Origin: Edaphochlamys debaryana
Lineage: Eukaryota > Chlorophyta > Chlorophyceae > Chlamydomonadales
Direction: 5' to 3'
Length of the DNA: 64,000 nucleotides
Assembly: GCA_016858145.1 (NCBI GenBank)
Contig: JAEHOE010000063.1
Location: forward strand, 62,001 to 126,000
Under the pieces are notes generated by a model. The model was given only the letters and a program-made list of their open reading frames with translations, searched no databases and was not told where the DNA came from. Numbering within the stretch: the stretch's first letter is position 1; each line of letters starts with the position of its first letter. Positions 7,542 to 37,294 of this stretch are shown here, in pieces. The position numbers and the translations under genes were made by a program.

Positions 7542-10500
7542 TCATTCCTTGCCGTACACCCTGCGTGGACCCGAGAGGGGAGCGTTGGCAGCAACAGGGC
7601 CAGCAGGGGACAACTGAGCTAGCCGGCCGACGGCCACGGAAACCTATCGTGCTGGCTAAAACCCAAATGCGGTCGGTCCCCTCTCCCCTGCCTTCAGAGC
7701 TGTCCCTATCCCCTTGCCTTCTCCCCAGTTGCTCTGCCCCCCCCCCTTGCCCTCCCCCCCCTTGCCTCCGCCCCCCTGCCTGATGGTCATGTCCCAGGAG
7801 GCGGTGGCCAGCTGAGCGCCGTCGGGGCTCCACACGCACTGCCGCACCGCCTCGGAGTGGCCCTGGGGGGGGGGAAGGCGTCGGAAAGGGGGGGCAGGGA
7901 GGACAGGGGTAAGGTATGGTAGGGAGGCCCCTGCACTCACAGAACCGGCACCGCCGCCCGCCTGGCTCCGTGAAGCGAAGGCGTGCAGACAAGCGCTCCT
8001 GTGCCCCTGACGCCCCCTGACGCCCCCTGACGCCCCCTGACGCCCCCTGACGCCGCCTGCCCCCCTTCCAACCCATGGCGTCGTATCCAGACCTCTGACG
8101 CCTCCCCCCGTGCCCGTGCCTCTGGTCAGTCCACTGCAAGTGTGCAACCTCACCCCCCCCCTCGGATGCAAGCACCCTCACCCCCCCTCTCACGTGCATG
8201 ACTGCGAGGCACTGCTCGTGGGTGGGAGACCACAGCCGCAGCGTCCTGGGGGAGGGGGGGTGCGAGGGGCGGAGAGGGGTTCCAGGGGGGGGGACTCAAA
8301 GCCAAACCCTCGCAACTCGCCTTTGATTCCGCCCGCCCCCACACACACCCCGGCACCCATTCATCCGTCCCCCGCCCCACCTTCACACCTGCGCCCGGCC
8401 CTCCCCCCACCCCCCCAACCCCCCCACCTGTCCGCGCCCCCCGACATGAGGGTGGCTCCGTCGGGGCTCCAAGCCACACACAGCACCTCCTCCGTGTGGC
8501 CCTGGGGGGGGGGTGGGGATGAGGAACGGGGGGCGAGGTTACGCTTAAAGCAAGGGGGGGCAAGGGGGAAAGCGAAGAAAAGAGGGGGCAACGGACGTGT
8601 GGGCTTCGTGGGCCGAGCGCGGGACGTCTGGATGCTGGCAGAAGTGCACGGAGAGTACTTCCCTCCAGGACCACTAAAGAGTCACAGAGATGCATCACAC
8701 CTGGAACCTGCCGGAACCTAAGCCCCTCCCGACCCACATCCCCTGACCCCCCACCTCCAACTGGGCGCACAGGGTGGCAGTGATGGAGTTCCACACTCGG
8801 ATGGTCTTGTCGTCACTGCGGGGGGGGAAGGGTGGGAGGGGGGGCACGGAAGAGTAGGGTGTTTGTTGCTGAGCGGGATCGCGCCAACGCCAGGAAGAGT
8901 AGGGGGTAAGGGGTCGAGGGGTATTGGAGTTCCACACTCGGATGGTCTTGTCGTCGATAGGGGTGGTGGGGGGGGGTTACGGGAGCGGCAAGCAGGGGCA
9001 GGGGGGTTCAGCCCGGCTAACACTGCGGCGTGCAGACCCCTTGTACGATCACAGTCAGATCCCAAGTTCCCCCACCCTGCCGTGCTGATCCGATCCGAAT
9101 CGTGGATCTCGGATCTGCGCCTACCTGGCGCTGGCGAGCATGGATCCGTCGGGGGACCAAGCGATGCTCGTCACCTCGGCCTTGTGGCCCTGAGAGGGAG
9201 TACAGGGGAGGGGAACGGGGGAGGCAAGGAGAGGGGGCGATGAGAGTCCCGAGGAGAAGATGTGAGCAGGGAATCAGGGGGCCTGTTCGCCTCGGTCCCC
9301 GCTTGCTCTTGCATCGGCACCCCAAGCCAGGCTCCCCTCCTCACCCGCAGAGTGAAGATGACCTCCCGAGTGGCGGCGTTCCAGATCTGCACGGATCCGT
9401 CGTACCTGTACGGAACAGCATGAATGCGGCCACTTTGAATCGAGACAAGTCACGTATCTAAACTGCAAGTCAAGTACTCCCTCCCCAGCCCGCACGCGAG
9501 CATCAGCACCCACGCCATGGCGAAAAAGCTGGCTTTCCCCTCCTCACCCCCTCCCTGGACCCACCTGCCGCTCGCGACCCGAAGTCCCTCGGGGATGGTC
9601 GGCCGCGCGGGGGCCTCAAATTCAGAATCCAAACCAGTGCCAGCCCCGGCTCCGGCTCCTCCCCCTGCCCCCACCCCCGCCCCCACCCAGCCCCCCACGC
9701 CCGCGCCCGCAGCGCCGGCGCCCACGCCCGCTCCCGCCGCCCCAGCCCCTGCCCCCGCCGCCCCTGACCCCGCCCGTGAGCTCTGCCGACTGGCCCCGGC
9801 GCTGGGGGCGGCGCCGGCGCGGGCGGCGGTGGATGAGTCAGTGTGGGGCCCCTCGGGGTGGGGCCCGTCGGCCGTGGTCAGCTGGGCGGGGCACCAGGCG
9901 ACACACGTGATGGCCTGCTCACGGGGCTCCTGACCGGCAGAAGGGAAGGCAGGGGGGGGGTACTCGGTAGGTAGCGAGAGAGTGGGGAGGGGGTAAGGCA
10001 GCAGCAGCAGCAGCAGAGACTAGCGTAGGGGGACCTGGAGGCCACTCCCCTTTCCCCGTTCCCCCTTCCTCCTCCCTCCCCACACACCTCCAGTGTCGAC
10101 AGGATGATCCCGTCCCCTCCCCAGTCCCCACCCGTACCGCCCCCCTCCCCTCCCTCCCTCCCTCCCCCTGCACCGCCCCCTCTCCCCCCCTCCCTCTTCC
10201 TCCCCTTTACCCCTCCCCACCCCTACCCCCCACACCTCTAGGGTGGACACAAGGATCCTGTCCCCGCCCTGCACCCCCCACAATTTCCCCCTCTCCTCTC
10301 CTCCCTCTTCCTCCCCCTTCCCCCTTCCCCCTCCCTCCCCACACACCTCGAGGGTGGACAGAAGGATCCAGTCCCCCCCCTGCACCGCCCACAGCTCCCT
10401 CCCTCCCCTTGCTCCCCCCCTGCCCCCAAGCCCCCCCCTCTACCCCTCCCACCTCTAGGGTCGACAGCAGGATCCAGTCCCCCCCCTGCACCGCCCACAG

Positions 10501-13500
10501 CTTCACGGCGCCGTCGCGGCTGCCCGAGGCAATGAAGGCTCCGTCGGGGGAGAAGGAGCAGCCGGTGATGGACTTGGAGTGGGCCTGGGGGGAAACGGGG
10601 GAAACACGGGGGGAAAGCGTGTGTGTTTCGTGACACGCGCACGTGGCAGGCACCGTCGGGGGAGAAGGAGCAGCCGGTTGTTGACATTGGAAGGGGAACA
10701 GAGAACCGTTGAAACGCATTGTACGGCATGCTGTACGGCATGCCGTACCTTCATAGGCTCGCTGTAGTCACCGCGGCCCGTGTCCCAGTACCGCAGCGTA
10801 CGGTCGTCCGAGGCGGAGAGCAGGGAGGCGGGCAGGTTGGGGTGGAAGGCAAGGCAGTTGACGTTGTTTGTGTGGCCCTGACAGGGGGGGGGGGAAAGGA
10901 GGGGGGGGGAGGGCAGGGAGGGGGGAGAGCAGGGAGGCGGGCAGGTGGAGAGAGAGAGAGCGGTGAAGGGTGCAGGGGAGGCCAGCAGGGCATGGCAAGC
11001 CGCCCTGCAATCCGTAACTATCCGATCAGTGCATCCAAACGCTGCCAACTGCTCAGTCCCTACCTCGAGTTTGCCGATGTGCCGCCCTGTCTCTGCGTCC
11101 CACAGGCGGATCAGCTGGGCGAGATGGGGAGGGGGGGACAAGAGTGGGAGGACGGTTAAGGGGGGAGAGGGGGGAGAGGCGGGCGAGGGGGGAGAGGCGG
11201 GAGACGGGGGAGAGGCGGGCGAGGGCGGGGAGGCGGGCGAGGGGGAGAGGCGGGCGAGGGGGGGAGGCCACACGCAGCAGCTCAGGGGCAGGAAAGCTAT
11301 GACGGGAGATGACGCCAATACTGAGAGGGGGAGAGGATCGAGGCAGGGGGGGGGGGAAGCACGGCAACGCAGGCCAAAGCCCCCACGCTCGTGTGCTCGT
11401 GCCTGGAACCCACCCCCCCACCCCCGACCGCACCTCGTCCCGTCCCCCGCTGGCCAGTGTCTTGCCGTCGGGGCTCCAGGCCAGGGCGAACACGAAGGCG
11501 GTGTGGGCCTCCTGGGGGGGGTGAGTGGAGTGGAGTGGAGGGGCGCGTTGGATGAGGGGTAAGGCACGCAGTGTCTTCGCTACCGAGACCTGGCCTCTAA
11601 GTGCAGCCGGCCTCCCGAAAGCGAGCCGTTTCTCTCCTTTCCTCACTTGCTCGCTTCTTCATTCCTCTCACATCAACCCTTTTGTCCATGTATGCAGCGG
11701 CGCTCCTCCACTTGAGCCGACTGCCATAGCCTCCTCGAGTTCTTGAGCACCGCCTCCCTCCCTCAACCTACCCCTATGTGCACGTCTACCCGTGCTCCCT
11801 TAGTCCCTTCCCCCCTCTCCCTCCCTCCATCTTTCCATGTTAGCCCGTCTACCCTTGCCCCCCATTGTCCCTCCCCCCTCTCCCTCCCTTGCCTGCGGCG
11901 CCTCCTCCACGTGCGCCGTCTCCCACAGCCGTACGGTCATGTCCCATGACACCGAGGCGAAGCGGGAGGGGTGGGCGGGGCTGAAGGCGCCGGCGGTCAC
12001 GATGTTGGTGTGGCCCTGTGTGTCAGGGGGGGGGGATGGCGAGGCGTGAGGTGAGGCGACGCAGGGGGGGGGGTGAAGGGGTGAGAGCAGAGAACGGTGG
12101 TGGCGAGGTAACATGGAAGCATCGTGTCTGCACAGCCCCTCGTGCCTCGCTACGCCCCCCCTGCCCGCCCCCCCTTCCCCTCTCGCACGTGCCTCGACCC
12201 GCCCCCTCCCTCTGCCCCCTTACCTGCCCCCATCCGCCTCTCCTCTCAGGCCCATCCCCCACTCCTTGCCCTCCCGCGTACCTCCAGGATGCCCGCGCTC
12301 TAGACATGTGCCTCGACCCCCCCCCTCCCTGTGCCCCCCCCCCCCCAACCGCCTCCCCTCTTAGGCCCCCCCCCTCCACCCTCGGCCACGCACCTCCAGC
12401 ACGCCCGTGCACTTTCCGGCGCTGGGATCCCACACTCGGACCGTCTGTGGGGGTGGAGAGGTGCGGCGGTAAGCGGGGTAGGGCGAGGGGCACATTGAGG
12501 CTGGGACCGGGCATTAGGCCAGAGTAAACAAGTCAGCGAGCCCAGCCCCAGCCGGGGCTGGAGGGGGGGTGAGGGCCCACCTCGTCCTAGCCGCAGGAGG
12601 CCAAGTCCCCCTCGGCTGGTACGCCACCTGCCTCCCACCCACCTCGGCACACAGACCCTCCCTTCCTCTCATCACCCCGCCCCCCCCCCCACCTTGTCCT
12701 TGCCGCATGATGCCAGGGTGGCTCCGTCGGGGCTCCAAGCCACCCCCAGGACGCTGTAGCGGTGGCCCTGGGGGGGGGGGTCGGGGGGACGGGTAGGGGG
12801 AAACGGACGTGTGTGTTTCGGGCCAAAGACGTGGAGTGGGAACGTCGGGGCTCCAAGCCACCCCCAGGACGCTGTAGCGGTGGCCCTGGGGGCGGGAGGG
12901 CGGGGAAGGAAGGGCAATGCAGAGGCCCGAGGCCCCCCCGTTGAGCCTCCATGAGGAAACTCCCCCACCTGCAGCACGTGCAGGCATTCTGCTCCTGCAC
13001 CCCCCTCCGCCCCCACACCTGCCCTCTCCTTACCCCTCCCCCCCCCCCCCCCACCCCCCCACCTGCAGCACGTGCAGGCACTCCCCGGTGCCCGCGTCCC
13101 ACACGCGGGCAGAGTAGTCGTCGGAGGCGGAGGCGAGGCGGGAGCCGTCGGGCGCCCAGGCCACGGAGCGTACGCCGTTGGTGTGGCCCTGGGGGCAGGG
13201 GGGGTAAGGGGCGGGGAAAGGGGGGGGGGGCGCGTGTGTTTTATGACGCGGGCACGTGGGGAGGCAGGAGCCTTCGAGCCGTGTGGGCCTGCCGCAACCC
13301 TCCCGGTGCGCTCCCCCGGCAGCTGTCCATCGCGCAAACCGCCTCCCCCAACGCGGCCCTACCCTCCAAACCTCTCTCCCCCTCGCCCCCCTGCCCCCTG
13401 CCCCCCCCCCCCACCTCCAGCGTGTGGGTGCTCTGACCCGACTCCCCGTCCCACAGCCGCACCGCCCCGTCCTCCCCCCCGGAGGCAAGCAGGGGCCCCC

Positions 13501-16500
13501 CGGGGCGGCGCCACGCCACACACGTGGCCCGGCCCGAGTGGCCCTGAGGGGTTTGGAGAGGGGAAAGGGAGGGGAGGGGGAGGGGTAAACGTGTGTGTTT
13601 TAAGACGCGGGCACGGCGGTCGGTAGGCGGCGCCACGCCACACACGTGGCCCGGCCCGTGTGCCCCTTCGGGGGGGAGGAAAGGGAGGGGAAAGGGAGCG
13701 GAAAGGGAGGGGAAAGGGAGCGGAAAGGGAGGGGAAAGGGAGCGGAAAGGGAGGGGAAAGGGAGGGAGGTTGGGTGGGTTGGAGGGTTGGGCGTTAGGCG
13801 GTGGCCATCCCTCCTCATCCCTTTGCGCCTCCCAGCCCTCGCGCCCCCGCTCCCGCGCCCCCGCCCCCTCTCCTGGTTCCCCCGCCCCCGCCCCCCCTCA
13901 CCAGCAGTGTCTCCGTGCACTGCCCACTGGCTGGGTCCCACATCATAAGCGTGCGGTCGTCACTGGGGGGTGATGGTTGGGGGGGTGGGGGTGGAAAGCC
14001 GGTGGGGAGGGAGGGTTGGAAGGGTGGGGAGGTGTAGGGTGCGCTCCGAGCAAGGGGAGGGGGGGGGGCGGGGGGAACTACGACGTGTGCATAAGCGTGC
14101 GGTCGTCACTGGGGGTCGGGGAGGGGGGGAGGGGGATGGGAGGGGGGGGGGGTGGCAGTGGGGGGTTGGAAGGGGGTGGGGCGGACCGGGGGGTGTTTCG
14201 AGTAAGAGGCAATGCGGGAGGATCCCATGAGCGCTGGGGCCTTTGGGGGCAAGCGCATCGGGCTGGCGATGCGGGAGCCGTCCATCTTCGGCCACGAAAC
14301 ACACACGTTTCCCACTTGCCCCCTCACCCCCTACCCCCCCGACACCCCCCCCATACACACCTGGCGCTGGCGATGCGGGAGCCGTCTGGGGCCCAATCCA
14401 CGCACGACACGCCCCCGTCGTGGCCCTGCAGGGGGGGGGGCGGGTCGGGGGGGCGGGGATGGGGGGGGAAACGTGTGTGTTTCGTGGCCGGTGAGGGTAC
14501 ACGACCGCGCACGACACGCCCCCGTCGTGGCCCTTCAGCAGGGGGGGGGCCCTTTCCCACCCCCGTCCCCGTCCCCTTGCCATTCCCCCCTGGTCCCCCC
14601 TCCACCCCCCCCTTTAGGGCCCCACCAGCAGGGTGGTGAGGATGCGGGCGCTGGCTGCATCCCACACGATGATGGACTTGTCCGCGCTGGGGGGGGGGGG
14701 AGACGGGTGACGGGGAGAAGAATCGAGTTGTGCACAGTAAACCCCCTTCCTCCTTGCCACGCGGCCCTATCCCGACCCTACTTCTTACGCCCTTCCTCCC
14801 TGCGACACGACAACCCCCTTCCTCCTTGCCACGTGGCCCATCCCCCGGGCCCATGCTCCGACCCTGCCCCCTACCCTAGCTGGGGGACACGTGCAGCTGT
14901 GTATTGCATTGCCCCTCCCCCCCCTTCATGCACCTGGCGCTGACGAAGCGGGTGCCGTCGGGGCTCCAGCAGGTGGAGGAGACCAGGGCCTGGTGGACCT
15001 GACAGGGGGGGAGAGGGAGGGGGGGCCCGGGCGACAAGGAGGGATGGGGGGCGACGAAGGGATTGGGGAGGCAATCAACCCCCCAGTCGAATGCGGGCAA
15101 GACCTTGCACTGATCAGTTCTGCCCCCCCCCCCCTCCGCCCCTGCCCCCTACCTTGAGCTTTGCCAGGGGCTCGCCAGTCCGCGCATCCCACAGCCGCAC
15201 CTGTCAGGGGGGGGGAGGAGGGGGGGGGTGAAGGGATGAAGGGGTGAAGGGTGGAAGGGGTGAAGGGTGGAAGGGGTGAATATATGGCAGGGGGAGGGGG
15301 GATGGCCAGGTAGGTCAGGGGGAGGGGGGAGCGAGCACCCTGCTGCCAACGACATCCCACCCCCGTGCCCCCCTTTGCCCCCGCCCCCTCCAGCCCCCTA
15401 CCGTGGAGTCGTCTGCGCCGGTGGCGAGGCACCGGCCGTCCGGGGAGAAGGACACGGCCCGGGCCATGTCGGTGTGGCCCTGGGGGGGGGGCGCGGGGGG
15501 GAAACGGGGAGAGACGGGCGTGTGTGTTTCGTGACACGCGGGCACGTGGGGCCGTCCGGGGAGAAGGACACGGCCCGGGCCATGTCGGTGTGGCCCTGGG
15601 GGGGGGGGGCGGGGGGCAAGGGGGAGAGAGGGGCGTGTGTGTTTCGTGACACGCGGGCACGTGGGGCCGTCCGGGGTCCGGGGAGAAGGGCACCCCTAGT
15701 ACCCGGCACGGCCCTTCCAACCACGACCCGCAACCGCAGCTTGCGACTCCGCAGTCGCCCGAAAAGCACCCTCTCTTGCGCGCCGGGGGAAGGGCCGTCA
15801 ACCGCAAAGCGCAGCCCCCTTCCTCCCCTCCCCCGCCATCCACCCCACCCCACCCCCCCACTTCGCCCGCCCCCTCGCTGCCCCCACCTTGAGCGTTGCC
15901 GCCAGGGGGGGCCACGACCGCCTCGCGCCCAGGTGATGCCTCAGCCGCCACCGGCCCCCTCCACCTGCACCTGCCCCTGCCCCACCTGCCGCTTTCCCCC
16001 CTCCTGACCCGTCCCCACACTCTGTCCCGCCGCCTGCTCCGCCCGTGCCCCCGGCCCCGGCCGCCGGCACCGCCTCCTGCGCCCTCTGGAAGGTGGCGGA
16101 AGCTAGGGGACAGCACAGCGCCGAACCCGCCACGCCCTCCCCCGACAGAGGGTTGACAGCCCCCGCCGCCCCCGCCGCCGCCGCCCCCAGCTCCGGCCCC
16201 CGGGCCAGCAGCCAGCGCTGCAGGTCGGACAGCAAGCCATAGGCGGCGGTTGCTGACGACGGCGACGACGGTTGACCGTTGGCGGTTGGCGGGCGAGCGG
16301 CGGTTGGGGCGGAGGTTGCGGAGGAGGGGGCGGGGGTGGAGGTGGCGGGGTAGCGCAGCGCGTCGCGGCAGAGTACGGAGGTGCCGTACCCCTGACTAAA
16401 GGCGGCAGCCAGGAAGCCGTACGCGCCGCCGCCCAGCAGGTCGGTTAGGCCGCCAGCATCACGTGCTGACGTCAGATGGCGGGCGGTGTACTTGAGGGCG

Positions 16501-19500
16501 TATGGCGGGGCCGTTGCGCCTGGACGTGAAGGGGGCGGGGGCATCGTGGAGATGTTTGAGCTGAAAGAGTGGGGGGTTGTAGTGTGCAGGGGCTAGGCGG
16601 GGGAAGCAGGCGAGGTGACACTAGGGCGTAGGGCGGTCTGGGCCGGAGGAAAGCATCCTTTGTGAAGGGGCGAGGTCGGGGGGGTTGGGGGTTGGGGGTA
16701 AGTTAGCGTCACGCATCAGCGGCGGTTGGGGGCTGGGGAAGGGGGGTTCAGGCAAGCGATGTGAAGCGGGGCACGGGAAAGGGTTGGGCCGCACGACTGG
16801 GTGTCTGCCATGACACGCCAGACGAGCAGCGTGTCGTACCGTACGGCAGCCGCGTGCCGTACCTGCCGTGCTGTGTACGGCGCGCGCCGCCTTGAGCAGG
16901 TGTCGGCCCAGCAGCGAGTGCCCCCTCACGGGGTCCACCGCGTGAGCCCCGGCCTGAGGGGGGAAGGGGGAAGGTGTGTGTGTGTGGGGGGGGGGGGCAG
17001 GCGGTTCATTGAAGCGTCATGGGATGGCCAGGTGGGAGCGGATGCCCCTCACGACCACAGACCCCACCTCAGACCCCTTCACACCCCTCATCACCTCATC
17101 ACCTCAGCATATCCCGCGTATACGTATATGACACCGGTAAGGTAAGATAGCAGCAATGTCCAATCTCCTGGTGCTGTCTCGCTTGCCGGTTCCTGCGATA
17201 CCCCACGCGGCCCAGCACACGCCCCTCACGACCCCCACATTCACCGGTCCCATGACACCTTCCCTACTCGAGCAGCGATTCGGCCAAGCCATCCTCAGAC
17301 CCCTTACGTATACCAGCACATTGTCCATTACTATTCATGTCAGACTCACCTGCGGGCTCCGCAGCCACTCGGCCAGGCCCCGGCTGAGCGCGAAGGCGGC
17401 GGGGCCCGCGGCGGCGGGGGCGAGTGTGAGCGGCGCACCGGGCAGCAGCGGCAGCGCCGGGGCCAGGCCCATGCCGGCCAGCAGGCTGCGGGGGAGCGGC
17501 TCCTGAGATGGGGGAAAGCAAGGTGGGAGGAAAGGGGGGACGTTTCAAGGAGGAGAGACGGGGAGAGGCACTGAAGGCGTAAACCGTGGTCACCCTGACG
17601 CGTCGGCAAAACACACACACGCTGCCCACAGCCCCCCCTTTCCCCCCACCTGCGCCGCCAGCAGCCGGCCAGCAGGTCCCGCACCGCCCCATCACGATGC
17701 GTCGGCAAAACACACACACGCTGCCCACAGCGCCCTCTCCCCCCCGTCCCCCCCACCTGCGCCGCCAGCAGCACCGCCAGCAGGTCCCGCACCGCCCCAT
17801 CACGACGCGTCGGCAAAACACACACACGCTGCCCACAGCCCCTCTCCCCCCCGTCCCCCCCACCTGCGCCGCCAGCAGCACCGCCAGCAGGTCCCGCACC
17901 GCCGCCCGCTCCTCCGCCCCCGGGAGGGCCCCTATGGCCCTGTCAAAGAGCCTGGAGCCGGGGACGGGACGGAATGGGGTTGGCACAGGGGGTTGGCCCT
18001 TCACAGGCCGGCAGCAGTTCCAGCGCCTCCCCTCGACTGCCCACCGTCCAGAAACCCACAACACCTTTCCCTAACCCCAGCCCCTCCCCACCTCGTGTAC
18101 AGGCCGTGGACGTCCTCCAGCGAAGGCGGCGCCGCCAGGCCTCCCCCCGCCCACGCCCCCGACCCCGACCCCGCCGCGGCGCAGGCTCTGCGCACCGGGT
18201 GGTACAGCAGCACCCCCCCGGCCGGCACCTGCACCGTCACCGGCCCCTGCACCGGCCCTGCCGCAGCCCCCGCGGTGCCGCTTGCTGCGGGGGCCAAAGC
18301 CTGCGCCGAGGGCGGACGCGACCCGCTCTCCCCCGCGCCCGCCGCCAGCGCGGAGGCCGGACGCGAGCCGCCCGCTCCCCCTCCTGTCCCCCCCCCTCCC
18401 CCCCCTGCCCCAGCCCCACCCCCAACCCCAGCTGAAGGCCCCGGGCGGGGCCCGGCCGCGTCCGGTCTCAACAGCTGCCGGGGCTCGAGGAAGGTGACGC
18501 CGCCGCCGGGGCCCAGGGCGGCCTCGAGGGCGGCCCGCGCGGCGCCGCCCAGACCCGTGGGTCGGCAGGTGAGGACGAAGCGCACGCAGGGGGGCAGGGC
18601 GGCCAGGGCGCGGGCCAGCAGCTGGTAGAGGCGGTTGCCGCAGACCTCGACGGTTGGGGCGGTTGGGGCGGTTGGGGTGGTTGGGGTGGTTGCGGATGTT
18701 TGGACGGGGTCGGCCTCGTCCAGGCCGTCGATGAGGATCACGACCTGGGGGATGAGGGGATGAGGGGATGAGGGAAGGGACTCAGAAGGATCTGAGGAAG
18801 TGGTGTATCCAGAGGGGTGATCAGGGAAGGGGGATCATCTCCTACCCGCTCACGCCCCAATAATTCCCTCCGTCCCCCTCCGCCCCCCACCTGCTGCCCC
18901 TCCTGCAGCTGCCCCAGCGGCTTGAGCAGCACCTCCGCCACCGCCGCCTCCCACTCGTCCCCCGGCAGCCCCGCCAGCCGGGGGGGGTCCAGACGGAGCA
19001 CGTGGGTCCGCACCGCGGGGACACTTCGGGGGTGTGTAACGGGGGTGAGACACAGCTGTCACAACAATAGCAGGACTTCCCTCTCCCATCCCCTCTCCCA
19101 CCCCCCCACCATCCACCCCTCTACTGCCCCCCCCTTGCTCCTCCCCCCCCACCCCCACCTGTCCGCCAGCTGGTGCGCCAGGGACTTGACCAGTCGCACT
19201 GGGTCGCAGGAGCGCTGGTCGGAGGCGGTCACAAAGTGGTAGGCCCTGGGGGGGGGGGAGAAGGACAAGTGATAGTGGATGGGCAGCCATGCCCTTGCAT
19301 GACCGGATAGAGTCCCTGCCTCAGAGCAGCCCCTGCAGCTCCCCGGCTCGGCACCGTTGCTCCTGCTCCCAAGCCCCCGACCAGACCGCTGACCCCACAC
19401 CGCCTGCATTCACTCTCGTGCCCTTTGGTTGAGCCCCTCGCCCTCTGAGGACCATCATCGCCCCTGCCACTCCCACGCACCCGATCCTGCTCCCCAGCTC

Positions 19501-22500
19501 GGGGCTGGCGGTCAGCGCCGCCGCAAAGGCGCTCTTGCCCTCCCCCGCCCCGCCCAGCACACAAAGCGCACGCCAGCCCGCACGCGAGCCGGCGGCAAGC
19601 CACTGAGACACGGGCTCAAAGTCCCAACACGAGATCGCCGCTTGGTACGGATCGGCGCCTGATCCGGATCCGGTTTTGTCGGCTTCGGTGGATCCGGATT
19701 CGGTGTTTCCATTTGGTCCGGGATCCGAACCGTACAGGCGTGCGACCTCCGCGAGCCTCGCGTCCCGGACCGCCATGTACGGCAGCGGGTCGCAGAGCAG
19801 CATGAGCCGCATCTGGGTGTCGTACGCCTCGTAGCTGCCGTACATCGCGGTGACGTCGCGCTGCGCGGCCGTACGGTCGGTCGGATCTGTCGTATCGGCG
19901 CGCCGAACGTCCATCTCCTCGATCAGGGCGAGGCGGTCGGGGGTGCGCGATGGCAGGAGGAGGCGGTCGGTGCCGTGGATCGAGAGCGTGTGGGCCCACT
20001 CCAGCATGCACCTGGGGGGGCAGAGGTCAGGAAGTGGTAGGCGGGGGAGGAATGGGTTGAACGGCGTTTACGAGACAGATATGCAGACGGCGCAGACCAA
20101 GCAGACCGTGCTCGTTGCCCCCGCCTCAAGCCCATACCCGCCCCCCCCCCGCCAAACACACACCATGCCCGGTGGCAGGGGTTGCAAGCCCCCAGGTCCA
20201 TCACCACAAGGGTGCCCTCCACAGCCGCCTGCCAAGGGGGGAAAGAGGGGGACCAAGGGAAGAGGGGGCAGAGGGGGGAAGAGTGAGGAGTGGTGGCAGG
20301 GGGGGGGGGGCGGCGGGGGCCCCAGAAGACGGACAACGGAAGGAGAGCAAGGGGTGATGCGGGCGTGCGGGTGCGCTGTATCCGTCTCTCCGCCCGACCT
20401 CTCTGCGAGTCTCGCCGGTAGGCAGCCTCCAGCTGCCCTCGCCCTGTTGTGCAAGGTCCCCGGCGGCCCTGATCATCCCCCCCGTACCACACCATACCGA
20501 CCTTGCCAAGGCCACACCACAAACCACGACACTTGGTCCGGCCCCCTCTCCCTCTTGCCCCCCCACCTGGATGACCTCCCTGAACGCCGCCACGTCAGCC
20601 TCGTGGTGCTGCGTGTCCTTTTGCTGCGGGTGTGGGGGCGGGAGGTGCGAGTGCAGGGCATGCACCGGGGTGAGAGAGGCTGGCTCTGGCTGCTACGTGA
20701 TCCTCTCCGCCCGATATTCCCCCATGACGTTCAATCTAGAAACATACAACCCACGCACATACGCCCCCCCCGGCCCCCCTCCTGCCTGGTTGACCGCCGC
20801 CACGTCCAGCCACACACGCGTGTCCTCCGGCGCGGCCGCCAGCATCCCCTCCACGGCCCGGACCGTGTGGGCGAAGCGGCCCTTCCTGGGGGGCGGGACA
20901 CGGTTTGGGGGACTACCATCGCCAGTACCCATGACCGACCAAGCGTTGATCCCACGGCGCTCCCCCTCCTCCAACTACCGCCAACTACCTACTCCCAACT
21001 CCAACTGCCAACTCCCAACTCCCAACTGTCAACTGCCAACTGCCAACCCACCATGCGTGGCTGACGAAGAAGTGGGGCTCGCCCACGTCCTCCGCCTCGA
21101 TCTGGCAGGCGTTACGCGGCGAGGCGAGGAGTGGAGGCATTGGAGAGGGAGGTCAGGGGCGGGCCAGGCCTCAGGCGAGCCAGAAGCTGGCTAGAGGCTG
21201 GGACAGGGGCTGAGCACGGGGTTCCGCGCAGGGAGCAGAAGGCAGCACAGCCAAGGCCGGCCGGGAGGGTGCATACCAGCAAGGCACGCCGGATGCTGGA
21301 GGCGAAGTGTCGCTCGGCACGAAACACATCTGGCAGCCCCCTCCGCCCCTCCCTCCCCCCCGCCCCCATCTCGTTGCGGTCCTCCGCCAGACGTCAACAG
21401 CGCTTGCACACGGTGCACACCGTGCCGCCCGGTGCGTGCCTGACACGCGAAACACATCTGGCAGCTCACTGCGCCCCCCCCTCTTCCCCCCTCCCCCCAC
21501 CTCGTTGCGGTCCTCCGCCAGGCGGCACCAGTTCTCGTCCGTGATGGGCATTACGTAACGCGCCACCACGTCAGCAGTGGTGATCTTGTCGTACTCCTCC
21601 CCGAAGTGGGCCGCCACCTGACAGGGCAGGGAGGTGGGGGGGGGGGGCGGGGGGGGGAATTGGTACCGCGCGAGGAGGCCAGTGCCAGCGGCGCAGCCTG
21701 GGCCTGCCTGCCCTCCTCCCGGCGCTCTCGCTTTCCCTCTCTCTGCTTCAGTATGGCCCAGTACAGTCCTGTTACCAGCCCCCCCCCACACCCATTGACG
21801 CCTCCCCGTGCACCTGTTGCAGTACAGCGTACGGCACACACACTCTGCGGTATGTCATCAACCCCCACCCCCCACCCCCAAACCCCTCCCCACCCTCCAC
21901 CCCACCTTGGCTGCTAGCCTGCGCAGGCCGCGGAGGGTGATGGCCTTGGACACAGCCGCCAGGGGGCTGTCATCTGGGGGGGAGAGAGGGGGGGTTGACT
22001 TTCTGACAGACTGGAGGGAGCGGAAGGAGAGCAGGGAGGGGGGGGACGGGCAAATCCGGAAGGGCAGGGGGATCAGGACGGCGCACGCACGCAAGGGCTG
22101 TCAGGCCGCACACACATTGCAGTGCCCTCGCCGCACAGTCTGCGGACGACCCGCTCCCTCCTAGCACCCAGCACCCAGCACCCAGCACCCAGCACCCACC
22201 CTTGTGCACCGGGACCTTCGCCTTCTTAGGCTCAGCCGGGGGGGCCTTGAGCACGGGCTGTTGGGGCCGGGGCGAGAGCAGGACGGGCCAGGGCGGTAAG
22301 GCATCGGGGGGGGGCGCGGCGCTCGCACGAGCGTCCCGCGGCGTAAGACGGGCTCCTAACGCCTCCGAGCATTGCCGTAGGAATCCGTGCCAACCCGTCA
22401 CCCCGATAGCCCGACGCCCTCCGCTCCCCCGGGACTGCGGGACCCGGAGGACCTAGCCCGGCCCCTGGGCGGCAGCCGGCCTCCCGGCCCCCCGGCCTCC

Positions 22501-22742
22501 CTCCTGCCTCGCCCGAACGTAGCGGGGTTCCAACGGGTCGAGAGCTTCCGTACCCAACCCCCGACCCCACCGACCCCCCGGCCCCACCGGCTGCGCCCGA
22601 GCCGCCACGGACGCGCTGCACCCCATGGCCCCGGTACAGACACGCACACGCACCCATACACACCTCCCAAACCCCCCCGCCCCCCCCCCCCCCCTGGCCC
22701 CACCGGCTGCGCCCGAGCCGCCACGGACGCGCTGCACCCCAT
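7542..22742 (-). CDS. NLR-like STAND protein: MGCSAS / FVSHAW module / P-loop NTPase / WD40 repeats
   Basis: One large minus-strand gene of roughly 35-45 exons and an estimated 1,600-1,900 residues. The start exon 22742-22704 encodes MGCSASVAARAQP: Gly2, Cys3 and Ser6 suggest N-myristoylation plus palmitoylation, hence membrane anchoring. Then come PVLKAPPAEPKKAK and DDSPLAAVSKAITLRGL, the FVSHAW module, an NTPase with Walker A (GGAGEGKSA) and Walker B (VVILIDGLDEA), a post-NTPase linker (YALKYTARHL), and about 16 WD40 repeats. The last repeat ends DMTIR and may splice, through a GC donor, to a 19-bp exon giving VYGKE and TGA at 7542-7544. The domain order is that of STAND or NLR-type signal proteins, where repeats sense a ligand and the NTPase oligomerises. 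The ligand and output are unknown. Continuity across all introns is inferred from domain order and frame; two or three adjacent genes cannot be fully excluded. Confidence 0.82.
8001..8058. repeat. 10-bp tandem repeat CGCCCCCTGA
   Basis: Four exact units at 8011-8050 with degenerate units on both sides. It lies in an intron of the WD40 part of the NLR-like gene. Confidence 0.9.
8801..8962 (-). repeat. Duplicated WD40 exon start with an intervening family-3 element
   Basis: The exon start encoding DDKTIRVWNS is present at about 8780-8816 (coding) and again at about 8925-8957. Between the copies lies a spacer with the core GCGCGATCCCGCTCAGC (8869-8885, reverse strand) and a C-rich acceptor. The same core occurs in an intron of the eIF2B alpha gene near 26,772-26,788. 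Confidence 0.85.
10083..10500 (-). repeat. Four copies of a WD40 exon end (WILLSTLEV plus donor)
   Basis: The tail of the exon encoding AVQGGDWILLSTLEV is found at about 10,450-10,500 (coding) and again at about 10,341, 10,231 and 10,083. Copies become more degenerate with distance. The spacing is about 110-150 bp, and each copy is followed on the minus strand by a GTGTG or GTGGG donor-like sequence and a purine-rich G/A stretch. Confidence 0.88.
10541..10690 (-). repeat. Duplicated WD40 exon start with family-1 element
   Basis: About 24 bp of the exon encoding GCSFSPDG is repeated at 10,541-10,564 and about 10,652-10,675. Between the copies is a spacer with GTGTGTGTTTCGTGAC (10,618-10,633), an imperfect CACGTG, and the C-rich acceptor of the coding exon. 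Confidence 0.85.
11160..11262. repeat. G-rich minisatellite (GGGGAGAGGCGGGCGA-type units)
   Basis: Imperfect units of about 16-19 bp repeated six times in an intron of the NLR-like gene, between the exons for LIRLWDAETG and TLASGGRDE. Confidence 0.85.
12715..12900 (-). repeat. Duplicated WD40 exon start (GHRYSVLGVAWSPD) with family-1 element
   Basis: Forty-plus bp encoding GHRYSVLGVAWSPD occurs at about 12,716-12,770 (coding) and 12,846-12,892, each preceded on the minus strand by its own C-rich acceptor. The spacer contains a family-1 core (CGAAACACACACG, reverse strand, near 12,810-12,822). Period about 125 bp. Confidence 0.88.
13500..13668 (-). repeat. Duplicated WD40 exon start (GRATCVAWRR) with family-1 element
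   Basis: The exon start encoding GHSGRATCVAWRR (about 13,505-13,545) recurs at about 13,627-13,665 as GHTGRATCVAWRR with small changes. A spacer carrying AAAACACACACG (reverse strand, near 13,590) and a pyrimidine tract lies between. The intronic copy shows drift, so the event is older than the ODC array. Confidence 0.85.
13676..13768. repeat. Purine minisatellite (GGAAAGGGAGC-type units)
   Basis: Alternating GGGAAAGGGAGC and GGAAAGGGAGGG units of about 12 bp (24 bp composite), directly beyond the duplicated exon start. On the coding strand it is a long pyrimidine tract just before a duplicated acceptor. Confidence 0.85.
14250..14540 (-). repeat. WD40 exon duplicated at both ends, with oppositely oriented family-1 elements
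   Basis: The exon encoding GHDGGVSCVDWAPDGSRIASAR (about 14,361-14,430) has its start copied upstream (about 14,500-14,535) and its end (DGSRIAS) copied downstream (about 14,259-14,285). On the coding strand the upstream spacer reads CACGAAACACACACG before the acceptor. The downstream spacer reads CGTGTGTGTTTCGTG after the donor. The core therefore points towards the splice site on both sides of one exon. Confidence 0.87.
15425..15680 (-). repeat. WD40 exon start (GHTDMARAVSFSPDG) in tandem copies with family-1 elements
   Basis: The coding copy is at about 15,425-15,480. A second full copy lies at about 15,553-15,597, and a third, short copy (FSPDPGR-like) near 15,667-15,690. Each is separated by an almost identical spacer with CACGTGCCCGCGTGTCACG, then AAACACACACG, a C-rich tract and CAG. 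Period about 115 bp. This is the cleanest example of the element. Confidence 0.9.
15897..18734 (-). other. NTPase C-terminal half and linker exons of the NLR-like gene
   Basis: Reading the minus strand: the exon at about 18,094-18,744 begins with Walker B VVILIDGLDEADP, followed by a sensor-like VRFVLTCRPTGLG, and carries a Gly/Ala/Pro-rich insertion of roughly 90 residues before LEDVHGLYT. Then come LFDRAIGALPGAEERA (about 17,866-17,953), EPLPRSLLAGMGLAPAL (about 17,351-17,503) and AGAHAVDPVRGHSLLGRHLL (about 16,860-16,953). The long exon ending at about 15,897 carries YALKYTARHLTSARDAGGL, typical of the helical segment between NTPase and WD40 in STAND proteins. Confidence 0.8.
17600..17910 (-). 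repeat. Three copies of the exon end DLLAVLLAAQ plus donor and spacer
   Basis: The exon tail encoding VRDLLAVLLAAQ with its GTGGGG donor occurs at about 17,866-17,910 (coding) and again at about 17,755-17,800 and 17,650-17,690. Each copy is followed on the coding strand by the spacer core GCGTGTGTGTGTTTTGCCGA. Period about 110 bp. The core has the orientation expected for a family-1 element next to a donor. Confidence 0.9.
19480..20012 (-). other. Walker A exon of the NLR-like gene
   Basis: A long exon that completes the N-terminal module (CMLEWAHTLSIHGTDRLLL...), passes through a segment with GSDPGPNGNTESGSTEADK, and ends in WRALCVLGGAGEGKSAFAA, a P-loop in which GxxGxGKS is intact. The next exons give AYHFVTASDQRSCDPVRLVK (about 19,160-19,243) and RTHVLRLDPPRLAGLPGDEW (about 18,890-19,021), as expected between Walker A and Walker B. 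Confidence 0.85.
20160..21113 (-). other. N-terminal FVSHAW / VWLDVAAVNQ / RAW module of the NLR-like gene
   Basis: Exons encode in order ACQIEAEDVGEPHFFVSHAW (about 21,054-21,113), RVWLDVAAVNQ (about 20,790-20,888), TQHHEADVAAFREVIQ (about 20,565-20,620) and LVVMDLGACNPCHRAW (about 20,165-20,232), continuing as CMLEW. I recognise this combination from uncharacterised algal and protist proteins. A TIR- or HET-like fold is inference. Before it, EYDKITTADVVARYVMPITD (about 21,500-21,620) is part of the same module. Confidence 0.75.
21360..21540 (-). repeat. Duplicated exon end (LAEDRNE) with family-1-like spacer
   Basis: The exon end encoding LAEDRNE with its donor lies at about 21,500-21,527 and again at about 21,368-21,394. 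Both copies are followed on the coding strand by CTGCCAGATGTGTTTCG, a variant of the family-1 core in donor orientation. Period about 130 bp. Confidence 0.85.
22162..22198. repeat. Five-unit AGCACCC heptamer repeat
   Basis: Five tandem copies (GGGTGCT on the coding strand), starting about 10 bp after the donor of the exon encoding PKKAKVPVHK in the NLR-like gene. Confidence 0.9.
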
Positions 22743-22752
22743 GGCCCCGGTT
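22578..22752 (-). repeat. Duplicated start exon (MGCSAS) with family-2 element
   Basis: About 55 bp containing the ATG, the 39-nt coding start exon and its donor are present twice, with ATGs at 22,742-22,740 and 22,626-22,624. Between them lies a spacer with the core ACGCACACGCACCCATACAC (plus strand, about 22,639-22,658) and a poly-C stretch. The same core is the spacer of the eight-copy ODC array 17 kb away. Confidence 0.9.
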
Positions 22753-25004
22753 CGGTCTCCTGCTCCTCAGCCCGCGGCCAGCCAAGCCCTGCTGCTGGCT
22801 CCGCTGCAGCTCCTGCCGCCTTAAGGCTCCTCCTCAAGTCGCCGATGGGGGTTATCTTTGAGACCTGGTGCTCGCCCCCGGCTTCCTCCACGGGGTCCCC
22901 GCCGCTGTTCCAGGCCCCCTCTGATGACACAGCCCCGCGCCTCGCTCCCAGCCGCCGCGTCCCAAGCGTTCAGAGCGGCCCCGAGCCAACCGGCGTGACC
23001 GGCTCCCGTCCTGTGAAGAGGCGCGTTTGATCTGCGAGCATTTGTCAAGGACAGCACGAGGGGCGTGACATGGGGATGCGCAGGGACTCCGGGATGTGGG
23101 ATGGGGCCAAGGGCCGGAACCGGCACGTCAATTGTGTGACATGTGTAGTTCCCGTCTGCTAGCTGCCCCAATGCAGTGAGTATAAGGAGTGGAGGGTTGA
23201 TGTTATCGGGCCAAGGCGACGAGGGACTGGACACTTGAGGCGAGGGACTGAGGTCAGGGGCAGGGAGTCCCCCCGCGGCGTGGCAGCGGCCTGCCGCGCG
23301 AAGCCTGTCCCCCTTGGCTTGCCGTGACCAAGCCATGCCAGCTCCGCACCTCGCGCTTGCAGTCGCGGCACTTCAAGAGCCAGAGGTCGCAGTGCGCATT
23401 CCGGGCATGCGCGAATGCACGACGCGAGCCTCACGCCACGGTGGGTGGGGTGCCACCGCAATGGCCAGGTCTAGTTTGCCCGGACCTATCGGGCCACGCT
23501 GTGCCTGCACTGCTTGCGCGGAACGCGCGCTGCAGTCCTCTCGAAGGCTTCTAGCTCCGAGAGAGGTACGTTCCTTTGCAGCTCGCTTCTGTCCCGAATA
23601 TCCCGTGCGACGCAAGCGATAAACGGCTGATATCTGGTAGGTCGTGTGCGAATGCGTGCGAACTGGCGTGAGCTACTTGCACGAATGCCGGGTGGTCGCA
23701 ACCTCACAGTAGTTGACTACTGATGGCTATGGAGCACTTGACATATATCTGGCATGCAATTACTCTTGATGTGGGGGAGCGATACGGGAGCTGTGGCAAG
23801 CACACGCGCTGATCCCGCGCACGCAGCGTCAGCCTTCCCCCGCAGCCCCGCAGGTGGGGGAGGCCCTCCCTGCTGCCCCCTTTGCACCGTCCTCTCCTCG
23901 ACGTCTTCACACCATATAGGCCACGCTACCCGTCTCCACGTGCTGCCTTGGGGCCTGAGCCGGTCGGAGGCTGCCCTCCTCATGCACCCCGACCCGTGAC
24001 TTCAGACCTGTCACCCCGACGTCCAGCCCAACCGCCGAACCGAAGAGCAGAGGCGGCTGAAATCTGACCTCTGTAGCCTGTACTTCCACCTCGCTAGGGG
24101 CCCCTGTAGCTAAGTACAGCTCAACATGCATAGTCTCCTCTATACCTTGCACGCCTCTGGGCCACTGGCCGGCCCACTGTACCCGTTCGTCCAGAGGCAA
24201 GCGACTGGTTCAACGAGCCCTTGTGCCCTCGTACGGGGCAGTTGGGGCTGTCGGGCCCTGCAAAGTGCCAGTTTGGGGCTCCTGCTGGCGTCCTCGTCAA
24301 GTCGCGTCGAGCTTTCTGGTCACCAAGGTTACAGCGCGTACTGCTAGCACCCTCATCACTTGATGATTGTGGATGGAATCCCTGACCGCTGACCCCCCCA
24401 TGCAGACTGCACGAAGACTCACGTTCCCTCCTACCTTCCCTTCAAGGCACAGCCTCCCTCAAGCCCAGCCCCCACCTGAGTCCTCCAGCCCCCGCCCGCA
24501 GTCCCTCCCAAAGCCCGCCGCTCCTACCGGCGCGGCTGCCGCTACTTTGCCCCCTCTTCCCGCACGGGACGTCCCCATGTCGCAGCTAACGAATGCGCGC
24601 TGACACTGCAGCGCAGGGCACCGCAGCACAGCAGCCCTGGGCCAAGTCGTTCTCCTGCCCTCGTCCTTCACGACGCCACTCACCCACTACCTCAATGGTC
24701 AATGCCCTCGCTGCCCGGGGCGCCCTCCGCACCCCATCACCACAGGTCTGCCAAGCACTACGCTGCGTCCCCCCACCCCCCTGGGCCCTGCCACACACGA
24801 CCAGAGCGCGGCGTCCCTCACCCCCCTCCCGCGATCCCGCTCAGCAACCAACCCCCGCTCCCTCTCCACCCCTCGCAACGGAGCTGCCTGGCCCCGCCCA
24901 CCGCAATCGCCTGCTCCGTGCCGCAGCGGAGCTGCCGTGCCCACCCTCCGGCCCCTTTCAGGCCCCTCCCACGCCACCCGCAGGCCCCTCTTGCGCGCTC
25001 CAGA
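22753..25004. other. Intergenic: 5' region of the NLR-like gene and 3' region of eIF2B alpha
   Basis: No family recognised in any frame. Both flanking genes are on the minus strand, so the part near 22.8-23.7 kb should hold the promoter and 5' UTR of the NLR-like gene, and the part up to 25.0 kb the 3' UTR of eIF2B alpha. A TTACA at 24,329-24,333 (TGTAA on the minus strand, the usual green-algal polyadenylation signal) lies about 670 bp past the eIF2B alpha stop. It is only a weak candidate. Confidence 0.5.
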
Positions 25005-28000
25005 TCAGACGTACAGCTGGATCAGCTCGTCCGACACGGCCGCCGGCGTGAGCACGCCCAGATCCGTGACGAGGAGTGAGATGCACTGGGGGGGCGTGTA
25101 GTCCCGGGAAGGGTTGATGACCTGACAGGGGGGGGGGCGGGAGAGATGGGTTTTGGGGTAGAGCAGGGAAGGGGGCGGGGGAGATGGCGAGGCGATAGGT
25201 GTTTGCGGCAGGCGCTCCGCAACCCCGAAGCCCCCCAAATGGCCTCCCTTCCTCCCCTTCCGCCTCTCCCCCCTCCACCTCTCCCCTCATTCCCCCGCTC
25301 ACGTTGGCCCGGGGCGGCAGCATGGGCCCCACATCCAGCGGCTTGCGCTCCTCGGGCAGATCGGCCTGGGGGGGGGGCGGGGCGGGGTGGAGAGGGAGGG
25401 GGTAGGGGGTAGGGGTAGGTGGAGAGAGGGTGATGGGAAAGCAGGCAGCTGGCGCGAGCTTGTAGCTCTCCCTGCTCCCTGCTCAGTGCTGCAGCCCTCT
25501 CCGCTCCCTCCCCCCACCCGCCAGCCCCCCACCCCCCAGTCCCACCTGGCCCAGGGGGTACAGGCGGCTGAGGGAAGGCGGGGCGGCCTGCCTTCAGTCC
25601 CCCCCCCCGGCCCTCCACCCCCCCCCCCCCACACACACCCAGCCCCACCTGCCCCAGGGGGTACAGGCGCGCGAACTTGTAGCTCTCGGCCGCCACGTAA
25701 AAGGGCTTGGAGGCGGCCTGGGGGGGGGCGGAGGGGGTAAGGGAGCGTGTGTGTTTCGTGCCGTCACGTGCACGTTTGAGGTCCCGTTGGGGCGCAAGGG
25801 GCCTGGGGGGGGGGGGCAAGAGCGTGTGTGTTTCGTAACGTCACGCCGGGGGAAGAAGGAGCACTGTGTGTTTCGTAATGCCAGGGGTAGCGGCCAGGGA
25901 TGATTGAGGGCAGGGCGTGGGCGCAGGGCCATTGGCTGTGGCCAATCCATGACGGACCGAGGTCCCACGGCCGTTCCCCTCACCTATGTCTACAGAGCCC
26001 CCCCACCCCGCTTACTAAGCCCTTACTAACCTGCGCCGCCAGCGCGATGCCGTACGTCCCGAGCTTGTTGATGATGCCGCCGTTCTCCACCACCGCATCG
26101 GCGCCCACCAGGACCATGTCCACCCTGACAGGGGGGGGGATGAAGGGAGGGGGGGTTGAGGGCGAGAGCGAGAGGCTGGATGATCCCAACACAGATCCAG
26201 ATCCAGATACCGATCCAGATACCTGTCCATGATGTACGCCACGCAGGAATCCAGCACCAGCGTCACGGGGATGTTCTCCGCGTCCAGCTTCTTGGCCATG
26301 GTGATGCCGGTGCCGTCGGGGCGGCCCTCGGTGACAATCACACTGAACTGCAGGCCCTGTCAGGGGGGGGGAGGGGTGGGGGGAGGGGAGGGGTGGGGGT
26401 GAGGGTGAGGGGTGCGGAGTAGGGTTGAGTGGTGAGGGTTGAGTGGGGGTGAGGTAGGAGTGGGGGTGAGGGGTGAGGGGGCATGCCAGCTCCCCGCCTG
26501 CAAGCCCCTCCCAGCCCCGCCTTCCCCAGTGTCCCCCTCCCGCCCCGCCCCGCCTTCCCCACTGTCCCCCTCCCGCCCCGCCCTCCTCCCCCCCCCCACC
26601 AGCCCACCGAGGAGAAGGCCGTCTGCAGCAGCCGCAGCACCACCCGCGAGTAGCCGTGCGTGAGGACCACACAGTTGGAGCGGATGAAGCGGGACCCCAG
26701 CTCGGCAATGGTCTGCCGGGCCCTGTCAGGGGGGGGGAGGAGGGAAGGGGGTGCCAGGAAGGTGTTCATTGCTGAGCGGGATCGCGCCGACGCCAGGGAA
26801 GCATAGCTTGCGAAGCTTTGCAAACATACCAACGCGAAGGGGCAAGGGAGGGGGCGTCAGGGAGGGGTCAGGGGCGACGCCCTCCCCTCCGGGTCCTGGC
26901 CTGCGGGTGGCCCCTCCGGTTCTGGCCCGCGGGCAGCCCCCCCCCCCCCCCCCCCCGAATGCCCCCTCCCGCTCGCAGCTTCAAGCAGCCCCGAACGCCC
27001 CCGGAACGCTCTGGGGTCCGGACCTTGGCGCGCATTGGGCTCGCTGGCTTCAGCCACACCTCTTGTCTCCGGATTCCACGTCGTCAGAATAAACCCCCCA
27101 TAGCTTCCCAAGCCGTACAGCACTGCGCGCAAGCGCCTCAGGCCCCCAGCCCCCTCACACTCTCCCCTCAGGACCTCCGCGCCCCTCCTCCCCGCACCCC
27201 CCCGGGCCCCACCGGGTGCTGGTCTCCGCGAAGTGCAGCCCCCGCTCGATCAGCCGCGCCTTGGCGGTCTCAATGTCCTGTGCACGGGGGGGGACCGGAA
27301 GGGTGCAAGGCTCACAGAGTGCCAAGCCGGGTCGGTGGCCAGCCGCTCCACGCCGTCCCCCTCGACATGACACCCCTCGCTGGCCCTCTCTGACTGCAGG
27401 CAACCGGCACCCACCGTCCCCCTCACCATAACCCCCTCTCCCTCTCACCCCCTCCGTCTCCTCCCTCTTCCCCGCCCCCACCTTGAGCTCCAGGGCGCTG
27501 GTGCGGGTGGTGTAGCGGAGGAAGAGCTCGCAGCCCGCCTTGAGCGAGATGTTGGTGGGGTTCACCCTGTGGGGGGCAGGAGGGGAGGGGAGGGGCCGGG
27601 TGGGTCTGGGGGGCACAGGCGGGCAGGGCCCCAGCGGAAGGTGAGCCGGCGGGCTCACTTGCCGGGGAGGGGAGGGGAGGGGAGGGGAGGGGGACAAACA
27701 TGTGAATCCTCGCCACCCATATCCGCCCCCTCAACCCGCCCCACCTGAGCCCTCGCCCCTCGCCGACAGCCCCTCGACATACACACCGCACAAACAGCAC
27801 CCAGCGCCCTTGCCGCCTGCCCGAACCAGCACACCGCCGCCTCCCTCCTCCCGTACGACCTCTTCAGCACATCAGGCCTGCCTTCCAGCTTGGGGCTGTG
27901 GGCCCCTGGACTGGCATGGTGAAGCGTGCAGGCCCCCCCTCGCCCCCGCGCCTGTGCTGGGCCCTGGCCCACGCAGCTACTGACCGGCGGGGCCTAGCCT

Positions 28001-37259: not shown

Positions 37260-37294
<35 letters not shown>

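Follow-up and report, generated by a model that had tools for sequence, protein, structure and literature searches.

A recurrent short tag with a pyrimidine tail and duplicated exon edges beside splice sites of Edaphochlamys debaryana

Introduction

Why should one short sequence recur beside the splice sites of different genes, facing the exon? The question is raised by a 64,000-nucleotide stretch of the green alga Edaphochlamys debaryana (contig JAEHOE010000063.1, positions 62,001 to 126,000, or C63:62001-126000; ‘the window’ in what follows), in which an original prediction, made from the letters alone, described a dispersed ‘family-1’ element within introns and read it as introner-like. Following this element through 141.9 Mb of the genome in 502 contigs, we see a constant tag and a pyrimidine tail that run up to a splice-like exon edge, with a second copy of that edge on the far side of the tag at most of the sites sampled. 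We put at roughly one in two the probability that very short inserts, in several families of which family 1 is one, enter at exon edges and duplicate the edge as they do so.

Results

A constant tag ahead of a pyrimidine tract

The family-1 core, CACGAAACACACACG, has 237 exact occurrences genome-wide, the reversed control having none, and a 22-mer in which it carries the 5′ extension CACGCGT (CACGCGTCACGAAACACACACG) is found at 329 places with up to three mismatches (control, 2). Followed by 12 pyrimidines, the core is found at 446 places with up to two mismatches (control, 3)—a count that takes in mismatched cores and is thus not a fraction of the 237—and followed by 12 purines at none (control, 1), the whole genome being searched in each case. 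Six arbitrary 10-kb stretches (L037-L042) hold no exact core. The constancy of the core is partly by design, because sites were found via the core itself; the 5′ extensions differ from site to site. The original prediction had the core often preceded by CACGTGCCCGCGT, and this extension is indeed present in the window, but it is local: the full 30-mer occurs exactly twice genome-wide, both times in the window, outside which CACGCGT is the commoner extension. Slippage of a simple (TG)n run, which the prediction had named as a possible refutation, fails as a full explanation, with 15–22 constant bases beyond the CA run and control matches of 0–3.

Two further ideas about the tag were tried and rejected: a viral source (the exact 22-mer is in 0 viral contigs) and a hairpin (many shuffles did as well as the three foldings, z −0.67 to −1.10). 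Penelope-like ‘Chlamys’ elements were considered as well. At window positions 1367–1393 and ~37235–37293, AAACACAC tags pass into longer (CA)n ahead of a C-tract; the second of these has GACGCGTC before it, and resembles family 1 with an expanded CA run.

The tag faces exon edges, donors and acceptors alike

The architecture was read at 44 independent exact-core sites (later tags of one array being collapsed into the first), a non-random sample of readable sites drawn from the early listed contigs and a few later ones; exon edges at all 44, and splice positions at the 22 that were measured, were assigned by eye. The first 30 bases 3′ of the core are at least 80% pyrimidine at 34 sites. A splice-like exon edge is faced by 42, comprising 18 acceptors (of the form tract-AG/exon) and 24 donors (on the other strand, exon/GT, or exon/GC at L012); at L002 the edge lies ~158 bases from the tag. 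The orientation given in the original prediction for each kind of edge is correct. It is one and the same strand of the element that faces both, such that orientation goes with the exon edge in the DNA, whichever way the gene is transcribed; the tag is therefore no acceptor signal at the RNA level, and a reading as branch point or enhancer was dropped on the same grounds. This also tells against the proposal that the element brings its own splice signal, as does the pyrimidine tract that many old edges already had (L023, described below, being different).

Wherever a site was read by eye, the intron is longer than the element, and tag, tail and copy occupy one of its ends; among these sites we saw no case in which the element makes up the whole intron, no systematic search having been made. 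Adjoining exons come from unrelated protein families, and across the 44 sites a similar sequence lies in the introns of many genes. When 20 chosen peptides from tag-adjacent edges were scanned against Pfam, 12 gave a match at E<0.05, 10 at E<0.001 and six above Pfam's own cut-off, the other eight having none or only a match above E 0.05. The families at E<0.001 are Tam41, DEAD, MoCoBD_1, MoCoBD_2, leucyl-tRNA synthetase editing, alpha/beta hydrolase, AAA lid, RFC1, WD40 and IF-2B, with ankyrin and LRV as weaker matches.

Oppositely oriented tags also occur in pairs 180–190 bases apart (C94:408866/409048, C134:21581/21772 and window 14293/14472). At C94 and C134, where the distances are 182 and 191 bases, both members share a rare tag variant; in the window the two tags lie on either side of one exon; an inverted pair in C90, with differing variants, is a counter-example.

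The exon edge is duplicated on the far side of the tag

Against 200 dinucleotide shuffles per site, an upstream copy of the sequence downstream of the tag is found at p≤0.005 at 27 of the 44 sites and at p≤0.05 at 32, the true number of copy-bearing sites being a few lower because L024, L032 and window 25,760 score on G- or C-runs. Across the 29 sites with p≤0.01 the two copies are 75–100% identical, a spread that fits events of many ages, and are offset by 85–131 bases in 27, with values of 243 and 274 in L002 and the doubtful L024. At the 22 measured sites the duplication extends 10–84 exon bases past the splice site (median 41; 26–66 in 20 of the 22) and takes in a median of 13 intron bases, the duplication being overestimated at L016, L025, L028 and L034—array sites, with a gap of 0—where the 5′ extension of the tag is counted in. 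The old edge at L023, AAGAAACACCTAG, is without a pyrimidine tract and the new edge is a long C-tract, which argues that here the tract arrived with the insert.

In tandem arrays an edge copy stands ahead of the first tag in all seven with exact cores. That n tags go with n+1 edges is the pattern given by insertion with target duplication, and speaks against a tag that formed part of an ancestral repeat unit. The array at L009 (1912–7764; C2:3,100,911–3,106,763) has 54 tandem tags over ~5.8 kb, with 52 of its 53 spacings at 104–117 bases and one of 215; each unit repeats the exon end with its donor, and 52 exon-edge/donor strings were counted by pattern.

Sites within the window

At each of the 16 places named in the original prediction we find the core or a recognisable variant: six exact (10,618; 14,293 (+); 14,472; 15,519; 15,634; 25,746), two with one mismatch (12,808; 25,823) and eight variants (~13,231; 13,590; three at 17,605–17,828, reading GGCAAAACACACACACG; two at 21,320–21,456; 25,867). 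With up to two mismatches the window has 11 core matches against 0.04 expected, three of them (1,367; 8,596; 32,315) outside that list. The bracket of repeated exon sequence is likewise genuine at most window sites, and weak at 25,760, a match made up largely of a C-run. The sites are as follows.

10586..10690, minus strand: family-1 insert at an acceptor of the WD40 gene; tract 10,586–10,617, core 10,618–10,632; copy includes 10,653–10,678 of 10,541–10,566 (p 0.005)
12775..12892, minus strand: family-1 insert at an acceptor; core 12,808–12,822 (1 mismatch); copy 12,843–12,892 of 12,725–12,774
13192..13258, minus strand: family-1 variant, CACGTGCCCGCGTCATAAAACACACGCG, before an acceptor; decayed edge copy, visible by eye only
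13547..13657, minus strand: family-1 variant before an acceptor; core 13,590–13,604; copy 13,626–13,657 of 13,504–13,535
14262..14360, plus strand: family-1 insert after a donor (gene on minus); core 14,293–14,307, tract to ~14,360; intronic copy 14,262–14,282 of 14,366–14,386 (p 0.010)
14428..14534, minus strand: family-1 insert at the acceptor of the exon whose donor has the 14262..14360 insert; core 14,472–14,486; copy 14,508–14,534 of 14,401–14,427 (p 0.005)
15487..15700, minus strand: two tandem units with the local 30-base tag; tags 15,519–15,548 and 15,634–15,663; edge 15,434–15,486 copied at 15,550–15,602
17597..17866, plus strand: three tandem units with variant core GGCAAAACACACACACG, after a donor; cores 17,605, 17,704 and 17,812; no edge copy visible before the first tag
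21317..21500, plus strand: two units with variant core CGAAACACATCTGGCAG; cores 21,320 and 21,448; edge 21,501–21,521 copied at 21,370–21,390
25732..25877, minus strand: three cores before the eIF2B alpha acceptor, 25,746–25,760 (exact), 25,823–25,837 and a variant at ~25,867; weak edge copies

The gene at 10–16 kb is a WD40-repeat gene (Pfam match). Homology confirms eIF2B alpha, proposed as a host gene, with 98% identity to a protein named from Chlamydomonas reinhardtii; when spliced at the insert-side acceptor its protein aligns without a gap at that junction, which places the tags and copies within the intron. By eye, the window genes at ~10.3–16 kb and 25–27.6 kb have many exons with a C-tract ahead of the acceptor and a G-tract behind the donor, and some of their acceptors read C-run-TG(A/T)CAG.

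Other tags with the same geometry

Counted strictly, close tandem pairs occur at 16 loci of the window; ten block shuffles gave 0, as did two equal brackets set at larger distances. Assigned by coordinates, six of these belong to family 1 or its variants, two to a second tag and one to a third; seven are without a recognised tag.

The second tag, ACGCACCCATACACACC, is found at 56 places genome-wide with up to one mismatch (control, 8), and within the window in an array at 4870–5567 and at 22648–22664, with exon-edge copies. Copies at p≤0.01 accompany 10 of the 11 places examined, seven of the 10 being in one array and one, at 14,345, inside a family-1 insert, which leaves 22,648 and one in L027 as further loci. 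The third tag, around GGCGCGATCCCGCTCAGCAA, stands ahead of pyrimidine tracts at 8866–8885 (−), 26769–26788 (−) and 24828–24847 (+), the last without an edge copy. Searching with the 8.8-kb insert as query brought up 330 first-look candidates; 40 of them, including the query's own place, were scored, all at E≤1.1e-10; in the sequence examined the tag has 13 places at up to four mismatches, three of them with copies at p≤0.01. For the insert at 28,429, the genome search matched only itself. Ahead of 989 tract starts away from exact cores, AAACACA was seen 44 times (9.9 expected) and ATACACA 13 times (1.9 expected), an enrichment that is biased in that the loci were picked for family 1.

Since the two further tag families share this geometry at some of their places, family 1 seems to be part of a wider process of insertion at exon edges, whether by retro-type insertion or by templated repair.

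Other features of the window and the genome

The GC content of the window is 68.0%; the published E. debaryana genome is given as 142.14 Mb in 527 contigs with 67.1% GC and (TTTAGGG)n at contig ends (PMC8226300). Among the first 100 of 243 places listed, TTTAGGG-type repeats lie at the start of C56 and at 609.7–610.2 kb of C76. Near-identical stretches occur three times in the window, on both strands, at 46882, 55892 and 62567 and at 47767, 56774 and 61685, which suggests a repeated gene or transposable element.

Discussion

How would such structures arise? We infer that the insert is mobile, and that it comprises ~15–30 constant bases followed by a pyrimidine tail of ~23–66 bases. Its tail would be joined to the exon at the splice site and the edge duplicated (some intron bases and, usually, 26–66 exon bases), the old edge thereby being turned into intron; the insert-side edge would then serve as the working splice site, presumably also beyond the genes checked by homology. 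Such a process would work on DNA and be blind to the direction of transcription, donors and acceptors thus being struck alike, and the direct repeats left behind could expand into arrays. The most likely step resembles target-primed retroposition: a G-rich 3′ end, exposed at the exon edge, would prime copying of the insert's RNA from its pyrimidine tail, with the second strand probably cut some tens of bases into the exon. In favour of insertion are the hundreds of copies of one tag, a base before the core that is not shared locally, and the one geometry of several families.

A number of observations weigh against this account. Twelve of the 44 sites are without an upstream copy even at p≤0.05, L024 scores on a G-run, and L032 and window 25,760 do so largely on C-runs; two sites (L014 and L010-8452) face no exon edge. 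At many of the 22 measured sites, a pyrimidine tract was in place beforehand at the old edge next to the upstream copy. Among arrays, the 5′ extension of the tag forms part of the match ahead of the first tag at L013 and at 15.6 kb in the window, and the variant array at 17.6 kb has no such copy. Loci are clustered, 22 of 55 same-contig neighbour distances being below 20 kb, with gene duplicates perhaps part of the cause. The constant part is very short; an autonomous source, an RNA and an enzyme for the insert are hypothetical; and retroposition does not usually duplicate tens of bases.

Of the alternatives, DNA-templated repair survives best, although we consider it a tentative explanation only. 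Here a break at a G/C-rich intron edge would yield a G-rich 3′ end that invades another tagged pyrimidine tract, copies tract and tag, and re-anneals tens of bases inside its own exon, the tag being a passenger without machinery of its own; such copy-and-return is known as microhomology-mediated template switching. Repair predicts the same structure, and it sits well with the tracts already present at many target edges, the clustering of loci, the commonness in the window of tandem pairs without family 1 (10 of 16 loci), the inverted pairs at C94 and C134 with their common rare variants, and an insert that is very short and has no known source. Against it, the C90 pair carries different variants, the 28,429 insert is unique in the genome, and hundreds of copies of one tag require a strong preference among many pyrimidine tracts. 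Nor was a donor locus found for the 5′ filler of L017, the youngest-looking insert: the filler has seven matches at up to three mismatches, as does its control, and the best other match has two mismatches. In addition, neighbours do not share the base that precedes the core more often than by chance (10 of 22 pairs, against 9.97 expected; p 0.57; 78 rows from the first 100 places listed, array members left out, or 76 after collapsing), which favours dispersed over local sources and led us to reject local copying between neighbours, by what is a weak, one-base test.

We think it unlikely that family 1 is a classical introner, i.e. a transposable element that gives rise to new introns and brings along one splice site or both. 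Much of what the original prediction saw in this direction stands—similar sequences dispersed at the intron ends of unrelated genes, direct repeats, and 42 of 44 sites facing an exon edge—and known introners can carry one site and borrow the other (PMC9860276). What fails is the equation of one element with one intron, since at the sites read the element takes one end of a longer intron; both of its strands serve as an edge, and the duplications, usually of 26–66 exon bases, exceed the 3–9 bp reported there. Plain tandem duplication or slippage at intron–exon boundaries, with the tag inside the original repeat unit, would account for the regular spacings of arrays (as in L009) and has a precedent across such a boundary in potato (PMC4974935), but is very improbable: it predicts that a tag precedes the first edge copy, whereas the single-tag loci that were read have the reverse arrangement, with two edge copies and one tag, which places the tag at the new junction; and the same constant tag recurs in unrelated genes, the repeat unit being more than the duplicated locus.

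A bolder form of the insertion account, which is possible but doubtful, is that tiny mobile inserts of several families, sharing one machinery, have recently been active in this alga as a system that recognises exon edges on DNA and rebuilds donors and acceptors, placing a tailed tag there together with a target duplication of tens of bases. If so, many intron ends would have been remodelled, and introns would contain dozens of decoy splice sites (as with the 54 tags of one array). It is rare to catch the replacement of splice signals and intron ends as it happens, and here there are many scars of differing ages in which exon edges are duplicated and the splice site is shifted beside a foreign tag, on both sides of exons. 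Were the process enzymatic, it would be a new way of reshaping introns; were it repair, it would mark a mutational hotspot at splice sites. The loci also offer natural test cases for how splicing chooses one among many near-identical edges.

Comparison with known systems

Retroposition of the SINE/LINE type gives direct target repeats and a simple-sequence 3′ tail that abuts the similar end of the target copy. Family 1 shares direct target repeats (at the 27 sites with p≤0.005), a simple tail and the joining of that tail to the target-copy end; it differs in its very short constant part, a tail of pyrimidines rather than an A-rich one, the long duplication and the targeting of exon edges.

We found no earlier description of such a system in this alga in open papers (supplements, preprints and most subscription papers lying outside that coverage), and the word ‘introner’ is absent from the main text of the E. 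debaryana genome paper (PMC8226300). Introners, according to Gozashti et al. (2022, PMC9860276), have target duplications of 3–9 bp, sometimes carry a single splice site, and form families with median lengths from 30 bases. Like them, family 1 is a short sequence dispersed in the introns of many genes, with direct repeats from insertion; unlike them, it sits at one end of a longer existing intron, in either orientation. Direct repeats at intron borders have been read as insertion scars of 4–30 bp (mean 11.4) by Rogers and Bendich (2025, PMC11782384); the repeats of family 1 share that position, but the copy is usually longer and one of the two is buried in the intron beside a constant tag. In the potato RdRp gene (PMC4974935), an intron was gained by tandem duplication across an intron–exon boundary, the duplication spanning the intron end and exon start and leaving a former piece of exon within the intron, much as we see here; that, however, is a single case without a recurrent foreign tag, whereas the family-1 tag recurs in many genes, and at donors too.

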